Shown: positions 22,794-27,596 of the stretch, in pieces
Position numbering within the stretch: position 1 is the first letter of the stretch
How the letters are laid out: each line of letters opens with the position of its first letter
Assembly (NCBI RefSeq): GCF_013409065.1
Contig: NZ_JACBZP010000001.1
Span: 2,862,518-2,926,517, forward strand
DNA length: 64,000 bases
Origin: Spelaeicoccus albus
GTDB lineage: Bacteria > Actinomycetota > Actinomycetes > Actinomycetales > Brevibacteriaceae
Direction: 5' to 3'
Notes under the pieces: model-generated
The model's database searches: none
What the model was told of the DNA's origin: nothing
Seen by the model: the letters and a program-made list of their open reading frames with translations, nothing else
Translations under genes and position numbers: made by a program

Positions 22794-23405
22794 TCATTGC
22801 ACGCCGCGGGCGGTGAGCGCGTCACCGAGTTCGTCCGCATGCTTCAACGCCATCACGAGGAACGGGACGACAAAGGTGCGCAGATTACCGCGCGCACCCC
22901 GTGCCCGTTGGGCCTCGCGTACGTCGCGAGCGAGCCGTGCCAACACCGGAACAGTGCTCAGCGTCACCGTGAGCAAGAGAGCCACTCGTTGCGGGTCGAC
23001 GCGCAACAGTTCCAGCGGCTTCAGGCCGCGTTCGACGGCATCGAGCAGCGCCGTGACGCGCGTGGTGAGTACCAACAGCCCGGTGAGCACGATCGCTGCC
23101 GCGACCCGTGTGGTGTTGGCGAACGCCGATTCGGCCCCAAGGAAAATCAGCTGACCGGTGACGGTAATCAGGATGATCCAGCGGATGCCGAATACCTGAG
23201 AACCGAGTTCTCGCATCCCGAGCATGCCGTCGTGAAGCCCGGCCACGGCGTATGCCAGGACGCCCGCGACCGTCGCCGCTGCGGCTGCCCACCAGGTGGA
23301 CGGCAAAAGCGAGACGGCCAAGACGGCGGCCAGCACGACCAGCGCCTTCGGTCCCGCGGGGGTGCGATGCAACAGCCCGTCTCCGGGCCGATAGAGCGTC
23401 AGCAT
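22794..23405 (-). CDS. bioN: Biotin ECF transporter T component BioN (EcfT)
   Basis: Transmembrane energy-coupling protein of the BioMNY biotin transporter, 203 residues with four to five membrane helices. The cytosolic coupling motif of EcfT proteins is visible as REAQRARGARG, with a second Ala-Arg-Gly near the C-terminus (DALTARG). It is the last gene of the minus-strand operon bioY-ligase-thiolase-bioM-bioN and overlaps bioM by 7 bases. Confidence 0.9.
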   Translation of the reverse strand: MLTLYRPGDGLLHRTPAGPKALVVLAAVLAVSLLPSTWWAAAAATVAGVLAYAVAGLHDGMLGMRELGSQVFGIRWIILITVTGQLIFLGAESAFANTTRVAAAIVLTGLLVLTTRVTALLDAVERGLKPLELLRVDPQRVALLLTVTLSTVPVLARLARDVREAQRARGARGNLRTFVVPFLVMALKHADELGDALTARGVQ

Positions 23406-24091
23406 TCGAGCATCGCCTCGTATTCGGCCAGAATGCGGGATGTCTCGCCCACCGCCCGCACCCGACCGTCGCCGAACAAGACGGCCGAATCGCAGCGGGC
23501 GGCGAGAGCGAGATCGTGAGTCACGAGCACCAGACGATGCCCGGCGCTTTCGAACAGATGGTCGGCCACGCGGCGCGCGTTGCGTGCATCCAAATATGCG
23601 GTTGGTTCGTCAGCGATGACCAGGTCCGGCCGGCGGACGAAGGCGCCGCACAGTGCGAGGAGCTGCTTCTGACCGCCCGATAAATCGTGGGAGGGCCGCT
23701 CGGCCAGAGCGCCGAGCCCGAAGCGGTCGAGGGCGGCGTCGACTCTCTCCGTGATTTCGTCCCGGCCGAGCCGCTCCGCGCGCAGCGAGAACGCGACATC
23801 TTCGGCGACGGTCGGCATGACGATCTGGGCGTCCGGGTTGCTGAACACCAAGGCAATGCGTCGACGCAGCACGCGGGCATGCTTGGCCGGGTCGAATCTC
23901 AAGATACTCAGGTCGCCGCTGGTCCGGGCGATCAATCCGCCGAGTAGTCGGGCGAAGGTGGACTTGCCGGAGCCGTTCTCCCCGATGACCGCCACCGTGC
24001 GCGTGTCCAGATCGAGCGAGACGTCGTGTAATACGTCCACCTCCCCCAGACGCACCCCGACGGAGTCGAGGTGGATGGCCGCCGCGCTCAT
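23399..24091 (-). CDS. bioM: Biotin ECF transporter ATPase BioM
   Basis: ABC ATPase of the biotin ECF transporter, 230 residues. Motifs in order: Walker A GENGSGKST, the ECF-type Q-loop VFSNPDAQIVMPTV, signature LSGGQKQ, Walker B LVIADEPTAYLD, and switch His in LVTHD. The DAQIV element after the Q-loop is typical of the EcfA/CbiO/BioM group. ATG 24091 overlaps the thiolase stop as ATGA. An open frame further upstream is arginine-rich and is rejected. Confidence 0.93.
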   Translation of the reverse strand: MSAAAIHLDSVGVRLGEVDVLHDVSLDLDTRTVAVIGENGSGKSTFARLLGGLIARTSGDLSILRFDPAKHARVLRRRIALVFSNPDAQIVMPTVAEDVAFSLRAERLGRDEITERVDAALDRFGLGALAERPSHDLSGGQKQLLALCGAFVRRPDLVIADEPTAYLDARNARRVADHLFESAGHRLVLVTHDLALAARCDSAVLFGDGRVRAVGETSRILAEYEAMLEC

Positions 24092-25212
24092 CGGACGACC
24101 TCCAGCACGGCGGCGACGCCCATGCCGCCGCCGACCGATGCGGCGGCGACGCCGAGTGTCCCGGCCGGCGATCCGGTACGCACGAGGCGGCTGAAGAGCC
24201 GCACAAGGGCAATCGCTCCGCTGGCGCCCCAGGGATGCCCGATCGCCAGTGCGCCGCCGTCCGCGCAAATCCGCCGATCATCGTCGGCCAGACCAAGCCG
24301 GTCGAGCACGGCAAGACTCTGCGCCGCGAACGCCTCGACGATTTCGAACGCGCTCACATCCGCCGTCTCTACGCCGGCGCGTCGAAGAACGGTCCGTACG
24401 GCGTGGGCGGCCCCGATACCCGGAAAGGCAGGATCGCAGCCGATTGTGGCGCAAGCCCGTACCGCAAGTCCCGGCGTTGAGCCCGCTCGGGCGAGAACCA
24501 GCGCTGCGGCGCCGTCCCCGAACCGTGTGGCGGTTCCCGCCGTGAGAGTGCCGCCCGGGAAGATCGCCGGCAGCCGCAGCAGCAGCGGTTCGGCGCCACC
24601 GATCGCTTCATCACGGTCGAGCCCGGCCACCGGCACCAGCTCGTCGTTGAACCGACCTGCCTCGGCTGCCGCGCGTGCGCGCGCATGGCTGCGACCGGCG
24701 TGCCTGTCCTGGCGCGAGCGCGAAATGCGGTCACGCCCGGCAAGATCCTCGGCCGCTCGCACCATGTCCGGGTCCGCGAATCCGTCCGGGGCAAACGGCG
24801 CCCGGCTGTACGGGAGTCCGTTCATCGAACGCACCGGCGCGGTGGACGCACTCTCGACGCCGCCGGCTACGCGCACGCTGTCGGTATCAATGCGGGCCGC
24901 GGCGACCGCATCGATCACCGCGGCGAGCCCGCTACCGCACTGCCGGTCAACGGTGCCGCCCGGGACCTCCGCCCCCAACCCGGAGGCAAGTGCGGCAATG
25001 CGCCCGGGGTTTCCGCCCGGGCCCATGCAATTGCCCAGTTGGACGTCGGCCACGGCCGGCAGCGGACCGGTTGCAATCTCGGCGTCGGCCAAGGCGGCAC
25101 GGATAGCCGGGGCGGCGAGTTCTTCCACGCGCAAGCGGGCAAGCGCTCGGCCGCGTATGCCGATTGGTGTACGCCTGGCGGCGATGATGACCGGGTCGTG
25201 GTCAAACGGCAA
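24088..25212 (-). CDS. Thiolase-family protein of the biotin operon (YhfS-like position)
   Basis: 374-residue thiolase-fold protein. The nucleophilic Cys is present (C92 in DRQCGSGL) and so is the His of the GHP loop (H326 in ALAIGHPWGASG). Two other catalytic loops are altered: NEAF reads VEAF (residues 292-295), and the second catalytic Cys is serine (S359 in ASVGGGMG). Ordinary Claisen condensation or thiolysis may therefore be impaired or changed. In Bacillus subtilis the thiolase YhfS is encoded with the ligase YhfT and the BioY homolog YhfU under BirA control; this gene occupies the matching place. It overlaps the ligase by 11 bases and bioM by 4. A role in making or salvaging a pimeloyl-type biotin precursor is inference. 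Confidence 0.85.
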   Translation of the reverse strand: MPFDHDPVIIAARRTPIGIRGRALARLRVEELAAPAIRAALADAEIATGPLPAVADVQLGNCMGPGGNPGRIAALASGLGAEVPGGTVDRQCGSGLAAVIDAVAAARIDTDSVRVAGGVESASTAPVRSMNGLPYSRAPFAPDGFADPDMVRAAEDLAGRDRISRSRQDRHAGRSHARARAAAEAGRFNDELVPVAGLDRDEAIGGAEPLLLRLPAIFPGGTLTAGTATRFGDGAAALVLARAGSTPGLAVRACATIGCDPAFPGIGAAHAVRTVLRRAGVETADVSAFEIVEAFAAQSLAVLDRLGLADDDRRICADGGALAIGHPWGASGAIALVRLFSRLVRTGSPAGTLGVAAASVGGGMGVAAVLEVVR

Positions 25213-26293
25213 GCCGAGTCACCTCTCCGGCCAGTACGCAGCGGACGGCCTCGGCTCGAGCCGGCTTGCCCGACCCCGTGCGGGGAAGCACGCCCGTGAA
25301 CCATTGCCGCGGCCGGTGCGCGGGCGCCAGGTGGACGCCGACCGTGGCGCGGATGGCCTCGGACGCGTCTCCTTCCAGCTCAACGAAAGCCGCGACCAGC
25401 GAGCCCACGAGTCCGTTCGGCAACCCGAACACGATGGCATCGCGGACGCCGGGTATCGAGCGCAACACAGCCTCAACCTCGTCCGGCACGATCGTCGCCG
25501 AGGCGCTCAAAATGGCGTCGTCCGCCCGTCCGAGTAGGCGCATCCCGCCGTTGACGGGCTCCACGCGATCGCCGACCGTCGCCCATGCACCGTCCCGACG
25601 GAGTGGACCGGGCGCGCCGGCATACCCGGTTGCGACGAAGGGCGAACGCACCCACAACTCCCCCGCTCGCCTACTCAGTTCGACCCCCGGAAACGGCCTC
25701 AAACCGTTTCCGTCGTCAACGGCGACAAACGACAGCTCGGCCGCACCGTAATAGGCCCGCACGTCGATTCCGCTCGCCTCGGCCCGCCGGCGAAGCGCCG
25801 GATCGAGCCTGGACCCGCCGATCAACGCAGTGTGCAAGTGCGGGAGCGCACCCGAGTCGAGCACGGCACGCAGCGACTGTGGCGTGCCGTGCAAGCACGT
25901 CGCATCGGTTTGCCGGTCGGTACCGAGAATTGGGTGCGGGCCGCCTGCGAGCGCGTGCGCCATCGAGAACAACGTCAGCGAGGAGACGGGCGGAACCGGG
26001 AGTGCCACGGAGTCGGTGGGCCCGGCATTCAGTAGTGTGGCGACAGCGTCGAACGACTCGGCCCACGACCGTGCACTGCGCAGCACGACGCGCGGCGAAC
26101 CACTGCTCCCGGAGGTCAGGGTCGCCCAGGCGATGTCTTCGGTCACATCCGCGGAAACTGCTGCGGCGACCACGGCATCCCGTTGGGTACGGGACCAGCG
26201 GGGATCCGTGACAAGCGGAACGTCTCCGGACGCACGCACCACGCGGAGACGATCGAGCAGACCGTCCGGGGCGCCGCTCAACGGGACGATCAC
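25202..26293 (-). CDS. Compact AMP-forming acyl-CoA ligase of the biotin operon (YhfT-like position)
   Basis: ANL-superfamily adenylate-forming enzyme of 363 residues from a GTG at 26293. Motifs visible: the P-loop TSGSSGSPR (about 60-68), YYGAAELSFVA, the adenylate-binding GDRVE, hinge GRADDAIL, and the catalytic C-terminal lysine in PRTGSGKPAR. Only about 60 residues precede the P-loop instead of the usual 150 or more, so much of the first N-terminal subdomain is missing, somewhat as in short MenE-like ligases. The start overlaps the bioY stop as GTGA. It probably activates a carboxylic acid for the adjacent thiolase; a longer upstream frame is only the bioY shadow. Confidence 0.85.
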   Translation of the reverse strand: MIVPLSGAPDGLLDRLRVVRASGDVPLVTDPRWSRTQRDAVVAAAVSADVTEDIAWATLTSGSSGSPRVVLRSARSWAESFDAVATLLNAGPTDSVALPVPPVSSLTLFSMAHALAGGPHPILGTDRQTDATCLHGTPQSLRAVLDSGALPHLHTALIGGSRLDPALRRRAEASGIDVRAYYGAAELSFVAVDDGNGLRPFPGVELSRRAGELWVRSPFVATGYAGAPGPLRRDGAWATVGDRVEPVNGGMRLLGRADDAILSASATIVPDEVEAVLRSIPGVRDAIVFGLPNGLVGSLVAAFVELEGDASEAIRATVGVHLAPAHRPRQWFTGVLPRTGSGKPARAEAVRCVLAGEVTRLAV

Positions 26294-26922
26294 GGCACGA
26301 ATTCCGGGTCGTGATCGTCGACCGGCGCAGCAGCCCACGTGCGACGGAAGGCACGCGGATATGCGCGGACTAGGGTCATCACGACAGCGGCGGTGAGAAC
26401 GCATTTGATGAGGTCGCCGGGCACGAACACCAGACTGGTCAGCGCGGTCTCCGCAAGCGGAAGGCGTGTGAGCGCGCTTTGCACCGGGATGCCTACGGCG
26501 TAAATTACCGCAATCCCGCCGGTCACCACGCCAAGGAGAGTTCGCCAGAGCACCGGGCGCCCGCCGGCGTGTACGATCAGGCCAATCACGAAGGCCCCGG
26601 CGATCCAGCCGATGGCGAAGCCGGCGGACGGCCCGAGGAACACGCCGATCCCCCCACGGCCGCCGGCCATCAACGGCAAGCCGATGGCGACCAACGCCAG
26701 GAACACCGACATTGACAGCGCCCCCAGCCATGGTCCGAGGATTGCCCCGGCCAACATCACACCAAGCGTCTGCGCGGTGATCGGCACGGCGCCCAGGACG
26801 GTAAATCCCCCGGGCAGCCCCAGGACCGCGACAATTGCGGCGCACACGGATACTCGGGCCAGATCGGTGGCATCGCACCGCCGGAAACGCGTTCGAGCGG
26901 CCGGCGTGGCAGGTTTTGTCAT
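26290..26922 (-). CDS. bioY: Biotin transporter substrate-binding component BioY
   Basis: S component of the ECF biotin transporter, 210 residues and six hydrophobic segments. Family marks are GAVPITAQTLGVMLAGAILG, LMAGGRGGIGVFLGPSAGF and FVPGDLIKCVLTA. ATG 26922 follows AAAGGA. It is the first gene of a five-gene operon in which every junction overlaps. Two BioQ-type palindromes lie 40-67 bases upstream of its start, so repression at ample biotin is expected. Confidence 0.95.
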   Translation of the reverse strand: MTKPATPAARTRFRRCDATDLARVSVCAAIVAVLGLPGGFTVLGAVPITAQTLGVMLAGAILGPWLGALSMSVFLALVAIGLPLMAGGRGGIGVFLGPSAGFAIGWIAGAFVIGLIVHAGGRPVLWRTLLGVVTGGIAVIYAVGIPVQSALTRLPLAETALTSLVFVPGDLIKCVLTAAVVMTLVRAYPRAFRRTWAAAPVDDHDPEFVP

Positions 26923-26961
26923 CGAGATTCCTTTGCTGGTGACGGTGGAGTGATCCCTACC

Positions 26962-26989
26962 TGAACAGTGTTCACTAGAACGCTGTTCA
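26962..26989. promoter_or_regulatory. Tandem BioQ-type operators
   Basis: Two 13-base palindromes, TGAACAGTGTTCA (26962-26974) and AGAACGCTGTTCA (26977-26989), with centres 15 bases apart, in the 80-base gap between bioY and bioQ. They fit the TGAAC-N3-GTT(C/A)(A/C) pattern described for BioQ in corynebacteria and mycobacteria. The second operator touches the bioQ -10 hexamer, so autorepression is likely. Confidence 0.85.
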
Positions 26990-26990
26990 C

Positions 26991-26996
26991 TATAGT
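26991..26996 (+). promoter_or_regulatory. -10 element of a leaderless bioQ mRNA
   Basis: TATAGT, six bases, then ATG 27003, with no Shine-Dalgarno between. It directly follows the second operator. Confidence 0.6.
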
Positions 26997-27002
26997 AGCG
27001 GT

Positions 27003-27596
27003 ATGACACGAACCGGAAGCGGCCGCGGGCATACGCGCGACGACGTCGTACGCACGGCGCTGCACATTCTCGACGAGTACGGCCTGCCGGACCTCACCAT
27101 GCGCCGTCTGGCGAACGCGCTCGGCGTGCAGCCGAGCGCCCTGTACTGGCACTTCGCCAATAAACAAAATCTGTTGGCCGAACTCGCCGATCGGATAGTG
27201 GCACGAGCCGCGGCCGATGATCCCGATTCGTCGTGGACAACGAGTGTTCGCGCCGAAGCCGTCGCGCTGCGCGATGCGCTACTTGCCTATCGCGACGGCG
27301 CCGAAGTGGTGGCCGGCACGCTTGCGCTCGGCCTGGGCTCTACGATGGCCCGAGATCGGTTCGCGGCCGCTGTCGCCGCCGGAGGTTTCGATCGGGAAAC
27401 GGCGAGGCGAGCCGCGATGGCCTTGTTGCACTTCGTACTCGGGCACGTCTCGTACGAACAGCAGCGGATGCAGTACGACAGCGTCGGCGTGCTCGCCGAC
27501 GCACTGCCCGTCGGCGGCGCGGATCCGACGGCCGAGTTCACTTTCGGCATCGACTTGATAGTGGCCGGGCTGGACAGCAGTCGCGCCCGACGATAA
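27003..27596 (+). CDS. bioQ: TetR-family biotin regulator BioQ
   Basis: TetR/AcrR repressor of 197 residues. The N-terminal helix-turn-helix is LTMRRLANALGVQPSALYWH, followed by F-NKQNLLAELAD; the C-terminal ligand domain is all-helical. It is divergent from the bioY operon, and the shared 80-base region carries two TGAAC-type palindromes, the combination described for BioQ of corynebacteria and mycobacteria. BirA or a biotinylated signal is the likely input. The name rests on context plus operator, not on alignment. Confidence 0.85.
   Translation: MTRTGSGRGHTRDDVVRTALHILDEYGLPDLTMRRLANALGVQPSALYWHFANKQNLLAELADRIVARAAADDPDSSWTTSVRAEAVALRDALLAYRDGAEVVAGTLALGLGSTMARDRFAAAVAAGGFDRETARRAAMALLHFVLGHVSYEQQRMQYDSVGVLADALPVGGADPTAEFTFGIDLIVAGLDSSRARR

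Follow-up and report, generated by a model that had tools for sequence, protein, structure and literature searches.

In Spelaeicoccus albus, the intergenic gap between bioY and bioQ probably works as one switch, in which the TetR-type regulator BioQ would repress a bidirectional promoter that has a shared -10 element and a leaderless bioQ, giving a self-regulated divergent control of biotin uptake. We hold this reading with moderate confidence. Its foundations, namely the BioQ boxes, the identity of BioQ, the symmetry of the core, and the conservation of both the box pair and the register between -10 and box, are seen directly at the sequence level. The window analyzed here is a whole stretch of 64,000 nucleotides, of which the gap occupies exactly positions 26923–27002, i.e. 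80 bases. Two 13-bp palindromes are found in it. The bioY-side box, op1 (TGAACAGTGTTCA, 26962–26974), is a perfect TGAACN3GTTCA, the published BioQ motif, and the bioQ-side box, op2 (AGAACGCTGTTCA, 26977–26989, dyad at 26983), deviates from it by one mismatch, an A as first base. Two bases lie between them and their centres are 15 bp apart, so that the positions read directly agree with the two palindromes and the centre distance reported in the initial annotation. The second palindrome was also said to abut a TATAGT hexamer; it nearly does, a single base separating op2 from TATAGT (26991–26996, plus strand), and this hexamer, the predicted bioQ -10, does stand 6 bases before the bioQ ATG at 27003. 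The CTAGAAC junction carrying the A of op2 is also present in the box pairs of G522, G536, G575 and G641, among the matches listed.

The central feature of the gap is the octamer ACTATAGT (26989–26996), which is its own reverse complement and hence presents TATAGT on both strands. The minus-strand copy (26989–26994) is predicted to be the bioY -10; it ends in a T paired with the edge base of op2, and it has TATA in common with the bioQ -10. Within 26989–26996, the predicted -10 elements of the two strands thus overlap, as in a bidirectional promoter. With 6 bases between -10 and start, transcription of bioY would begin at 26982 on the minus strand, one base off the op2 dyad. An alternative minus-strand -10, TACTAT (26992–26997), would set the two starts 18 bp apart. 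The predicted separation of the divergent starts, 21 or 18 bp, falls within the 7–25 bp by which Warman and co-workers define bidirectional promoters (PMC10268837). The -35 elements are poor, with at best 3/6 matches for bioQ and 2/6 for bioY, and a strict sigma-70 scan found no promoter in either direction.

The regulator gene bioQ (27003–27596, plus strand, predicted leaderless) encodes a TetR-type repressor of 197 aa. Its product contains the PF00440 (TetR_N, 44.2 bits) and PF02909 (TetR_C_1, 51.1 bits) domains, both over cut-off. Its best sequence matches among solved chains are 5xs9, 5yek and 5yej (E-values from 2.4e-39 to 3e-39), whose titles all name BioQ: 5xs9 is the Mycobacterium smegmatis protein and 5yej is BioQ with operator DNA. 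A structure model was built from an alignment of 25 sequences including the protein of the window (pLDDT 93.2). When this model was submitted to Foldseek, the solved M. smegmatis BioQ entries took ranks 1–6, and its comparison with solved BioQ gave a Z-score of 23.9 and 1.4 Å over 179 residues. Judged by sequence and modelled fold, the regulator is BioQ. In agreement with the predicted BioQ site TGAAC-N3-GTTCA (PMC3398298), TGAACN3GTTCA boxes precede biotin genes at bioQ loci. The BioQ and BioY proteins of the window are 65% and 69% identical to their Glaciibacter counterparts (L020). Among 59 other genomes of the family to which S. albus belongs, the best BioQ match by E-value reached 48% over about 150 residues. 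From these comparisons, the bioQ-bioY cluster (22794–27596) may have been acquired, or may have been lost in relatives.

On the other side of the gap, an operon transcribed on the minus strand starts with bioY (26290–26922; Pfam BioY, 4.8e-34), which encodes the substrate-binding membrane component in an ECF transporter for biotin. It is followed by genes for an AMP-forming acyl-CoA ligase (25202–26311, Pfam AMP-binding, start codon uncertain), a thiolase (24088–25212, NCBIfam TIGR01930 over cut-off), a bioM-like ECF ATPase (23399–24058, start codon uncertain; ABC_tran, with ECF_ATPase_1 as the best NCBIfam match, below cut-off) and a bioN-like ECF transmembrane protein (22794–23405, Pfam CbiQ). 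No bioB over cut-off was detected in this genome, which is 98.9% complete; the best match reached 37.1 bits, with 225 needed. Because of this result and of the uptake operon as target, BioQ in S. albus seems to regulate the uptake of biotin, not its synthesis. A second BioY is encoded about 34 kb beyond the window (cluster at G000:C1:2958600-2962600, L175), and no BioQ box with at most one mismatch was found within its 4-kb surroundings. At many other loci, BioY, BioM or the ligase is encoded opposite bioQ. In Mycobacterium, the gene divergent from bioQ is presumably bioB, as read from an ORF in L060. Boxes in the family of S. albus are seen before a bioY whose product is 36–37% identical to that of the window (L134, L136, L140, L142 and L143), and in L135 before a gene that resembles bioB. 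Five genomes of family f19 (L217, L219, L222, L223 and L238) have 15-bp pairs of BioQ boxes before an acyl-CoA ligase gene, accompanied in L217, L223 and L238 by a thiolase gene. No BioY or BioQ match was found within 1.5 kb of these five ligase sites, so the ligase and thiolase are tied to biotin control independently of bioY.

A search of the genome for the motif, proposed in the initial annotation, gave a different answer for single boxes and for the pair. With at most one mismatch, three TGAACN3GTTCA sites are present in the window, the mean in shuffled sequences being 1.30 and 19 of 100 shuffles reaching three; the genome has 56 forward matches and 67 matches to the reversed pattern. Single sites therefore mean little, and single palindromes were rejected as evidence. 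The pair with 15-bp spacing and at most three mismatches occurs once in the window and in none of 100 shuffles, and in the 4.03-Mb genome it is found at this one place, with no match for the reversed-pattern control. The only other perfect TGAACN3GTTCA of the genome (C1:3610450-3610462, L002) precedes an ORF that may encode an IclR-type regulator. As read from the ORFs within 3 kb, it presumably lies between this regulator gene and a gene for a transport protein. No biotin gene was seen within 3 kb, and a role of this box as a biotin site is unsupported.

The pair is also conserved outside S. albus. Exact pairs with 0–25 bases between the boxes were present in 40 of 396 genomes sampled from the order (reversed control, 0). 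Sixteen of the 41 order pairs listed have a 2-base gap and two have a 17-base gap that encloses a third, one-mismatch box, thus forming triples at 15-bp steps; the remaining gaps are of 1, 3, 5, 6, 7, 8 and 19–21 bases. In family f19, which is not that of S. albus, the 15-bp pair with at most one mismatch was detected in 70 of 299 sampled genomes, the control giving none. To describe the BioQ loci themselves, 107 were examined (the window plus 80 plus 26). Two without a box (L074 and L089) were dropped, and the 105 others were reduced to 38 representatives below 75% identity, the window included. The boxes are spaced by 15 bp in 19 representatives and form a 15-bp triple in 3, a single box is present in 7, and 9 have another spacing. 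Apart from 15 bp, boxes 14, 16, 18, 19, 20 and 21 bp apart were found, and 32–34 bp occurs elsewhere in the order. A 15-bp spacing fixed everywhere is rejected by these other spacings. Since several occur, no single protein-protein contact is demanded. The commonest spacing, 15 bp, amounts to about 1.43 turns and would place two dimers on near-opposite faces of the helix; the cooperative binding at offset faces suggested in the initial annotation is a possibility at this spacing. Triple boxes at 15-bp steps (L028, L050, L146, L196, L212 and others) have the look of a 15-bp unit duplicated stepwise in the direction of the target gene. A wider layout, with boxes 32–34 bp apart before bioY, is seen in the family of S. 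albus (L134, L136, L140, L142 and L143); L142 has a TANNNT (TACTGT) between its two boxes. A held-out set was assembled from 64 loci among the matches listed, chosen for the 15-bp pair only, plus 5 carried over. Of the 69 loci run, 59 had an adjacent BioQ, and removal of 33 near-duplicates of the first set or of one another left 26; these share a family with some of the first-set loci.

The position of the minus-strand -10 relative to the box is conserved as well. We call register a minus-strand TANNNT that ends on the edge base of the bioQ-side box. It is found in 24/38 representatives and, among the matches listed, in 18/26 held-out loci. Other offsets gave on average 0.39 loci in the first set and 0.27 in the held-out set, the mirror position 3/38 and 0/26, and 17 chance palindromes of the S. 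albus genome showed the register at none of their 34 ends. The symmetry at bioQ loci is partly automatic, because TATANT makes a good -10 in any case and the edge A comes from the box. Therefore, only targets without bioQ test the register independently. At second boxes of mycobacteria and nocardiae, located kilobases from bioQ, it is present in 27 of 29 distinct cases (29 of 31 before removal of L042 and L045, two positive cases that are bioQ loci), the misses being L033 and L068. Ten other bioQ-less sites, of which four are from one genus (g128, three positive) and all but two (L148 and L234) have an identified target, gave 6/10 on the target side and 0/10 on the opposite side. The register is not universal: none of 10 paired sites from the family of S. 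albus shows it, and L174 also lacks it.

As for the shared core, the two -10 elements overlap or lie at most 5 nt apart in 25/38 representatives and 16/26 held-out loci, and no overlapping -10 was found in 13/38 and 10/26. Where the bioQ -10 lies 8–12 bp beyond the box, the register is kept in one of six first-set representatives (L027) and in five of eight held-out loci (L176, L198, L209, L212 and L237). The shared core is therefore the commoner of several layouts. In two groups of loci both flanking bases are exchanged, yet a 12-bp palindrome is retained: TCACTATAGTGA in L056 and L168, TCAGTATACTGA in L053 and L077, with L053, L056 and L077 being Microbacterium. Full pairing of the bases around TATA was considered as a proof of symmetry, and it is only suggestive as other combinations occur.

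That bioQ is leaderless, as annotated initially, is supported by the geometry of the window and of its relatives. A leaderless gene is expected to have its -10 about 6–8 nt before the start codon and no Shine-Dalgarno sequence; here the distance is 6 nt, and op2 and the -10 lie directly upstream of the ATG. In 16 of 30 first-set representatives, the -10 precedes the bioQ start by 6–7 nt; the distance is 9 nt in another 6 and different in 8. The held-out set gave 6–8 nt in 17 of 22, 9 nt in 3 and other distances in 2. The bioQ transcript thus probably starts on the A of its ATG. Leaderless mRNAs are common in mycobacteria, where they were reported for 47.50% of 2,139 M. smegmatis genes (PMC5741613).

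Where bioY transcription could start decides between the shared core and its main rival. With start codons of targets as picked by a script, the target start lies at most 27 nt from the boxes in 27 of 38 representatives, and the Shine-Dalgarno sequence often touches a box. A target-side TANNNT far enough from the Shine-Dalgarno sequence to serve was found in none of the 38. Among the 27 close-start representatives, 16 have a minus-strand TANNNT at most 5 nt from the bioQ -10 and 7 have one elsewhere, and four (L028, L032, L156 and L157) gave no minus-strand TANNNT over the boxes plus the next 45 nt. The window does not belong to these close-start loci: the bioY start codon lies 39 nt from op1, and its Shine-Dalgarno sequence is AAAGGA (26929–26934, minus strand).

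The main rival is a separate bioY promoter beside op1. Two divergent promoters would then be present, with TATAGT near op2 serving bioQ and an outward TAGGGA (26954–26959, minus strand) serving bioY; each box would mainly serve the adjoining promoter and BioQ would still switch both. The 39 nt before bioY and its good Shine-Dalgarno sequence leave room for such a promoter, and TAGGGA lies 2 bases outside op1, exactly where L032, L233 and L235 have a strict TANNNT. In L032 this is TATACT, 7 nt before the target ATG, as expected for a leaderless target, so that the absence of a target-side -10 anywhere was rejected. L192 also has a target-side -10, and L152 shows a strict TANNNT in the corresponding place on the bioQ side. 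Against a separate promoter, TAGGGA itself has no T at its sixth base, and a TANNNT of any kind is rare in the interval from op1 to the target start, with one case in 38 (L032) and three in 26 held-out loci (L192, L233 and L235). The closeness of the target start to the boxes in 27/38 also argues against it, as does the fact that, outside the family of S. albus, most bioQ-less targets have their -10 beyond the box, away from the target gene. In view of L032 and of the position that it shares with TAGGGA, we consider the shared core slightly less probable, and two separate promoters more probable, than we otherwise would; the latter nevertheless seem unlikely.

It could also be that bioY is transcribed from another start, that the pair of boxes serves only to tighten its repression, and that the TATAGT of the minus strand does nothing, arising simply because a strong bioQ -10 adjoins a box whose last base is A. 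TATANT being near-consensus, such symmetry comes almost free at bioQ loci. This explanation fits badly with the register at sites without an adjoining bioQ promoter (27/29 and 6/10 as given above) and with the scarcity of any other target -10, and we judge it improbable. We give as little credence to control by a single BioQ dimer, in which one box would be degenerate or weak and the spacing of 15 bp would have no function: C. glutamicum BioQ binds TGAAC-N3-GTTAC, a single 13-bp box, as one dimer (PMC9210681), mycobacterial bioQ loci show one box and op2 has a mismatch, but exact 15-bp pairs or triples are found in 22/38 representatives and pairs in 70/299 f19 genomes, and op2 is the box in the conserved -10 register that should matter most.

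Returning to the shared core, we infer BioQ binding, the transcript starts, repression and competition as follows. BioQ, a TetR-type dimer, would bind the two boxes 15 bp apart, and the core ACTATAGT beside them would give a TATAGT -10 to each strand. Rightward, the bioQ transcript would begin at the A of ATG; leftward, transcription of bioY, the ligase, the thiolase, bioM and bioN would set out within op2, at about 26982. A dimer sitting on op2 would lie over both the bioY start and the spacer of the bioQ promoter (-26 to -14), and one on op1 (-41 to -29 of bioQ) over the bioQ -35 region and the early transcribed bioY sequence. BioQ would thereby keep both directions closed until its signal lifts it off the DNA. 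The core, once free, could accept one RNA polymerase at a time, and the two directions would compete. That one TetR protein could switch both directions had been proposed in the initial annotation, and comparison supports this well, since the protein is a BioQ, the boxes are BioQ boxes and the layout recurs where bioQ lies beside biotin genes. The likely reason for two-way switching goes beyond that proposal, in that a single symmetric -10 seems to serve both promoters. As a more general and more tentative proposal, which we regard as possible but rather doubtful in its full extent, many actinobacteria may possess a composite element in which a BioQ box begins with the last base of a -10, placing the repressor on the target start. 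At bioQ, this -10 would form part of a symmetric core used by the leaderless bioQ as well, coupling repression with polymerase competition, and in many genomes of the order the box would be repeated at 15-bp steps into the target leader.

The BioQ regulon is known in Corynebacterium and Mycobacterium (Brune 2012, Tang 2014 and Wei 2018, via PMC3398298, PMC9210681 and PMC9302846). The TetR-type BioQ, the TGAACN3GTTCA box and the biotin targets are alike here, as is the divergence of bioQ from a bio gene with respect to the mycobacterial loci examined, whereas the two boxes 15 bp apart and the uptake operon as target differ. The single -10 proposed for both directions is a further difference, although it may hold in Mycobacterium too. 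The box type is thus already known, and the layout of the pair looks like a conserved variant; what is new is the self-complementary core that puts TATAGT on the bioY strand, ending at the operator edge base. A literature search on BioQ operators and regulon and on TetR proteins with bidirectional promoters returned no title or abstract opening that mentions BioQ boxes in tandem or a -10 common to both promoters at bioQ; beyond titles and abstract openings, these features may already be in print, for instance in the main BioQ papers (Brune 2012, Tang 2014 and Wei 2018). Other TetR-type repressors, QacR, CgmR, RolR and EthR, bind as more than one dimer (PMC9210681). Their long operators, like the one described here, have room for two dimers; in contrast, the S. 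albus gap contains two complete and separate 13-bp palindromes, a candidate site for binding as a pair.

Another close parallel is E. coli PacrA/acrR, where the TetR-type AcrR represses both directions and where one polymerase at a time has been argued (PMC12825309). Both systems have the gene of a TetR-family autorepressor divergent from a transporter operon, a -10 that is partly shared, and two-way repression, which for BioQ is predicted from sequence. They differ in regulator and signal, in the predicted leaderless bioQ and in the tandem boxes at the core. Activators tilt the balance at PacrA/acrR, whereas none is known at bioQ. The competition between polymerases that we propose after release of BioQ is by analogy with the argument made for E. 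coli (PMC12825309).

According to the abstract of that same study, nothing is known about the control of bidirectional promoters. The bioQ locus offers a small, conserved and naturally varied actinobacterial case for this question. It involves a single repressor and a single vitamin, its boxes stand in register with the -10, and its regulator gene is probably leaderless. It yields clear predictions for 5' ends and for single-base changes.
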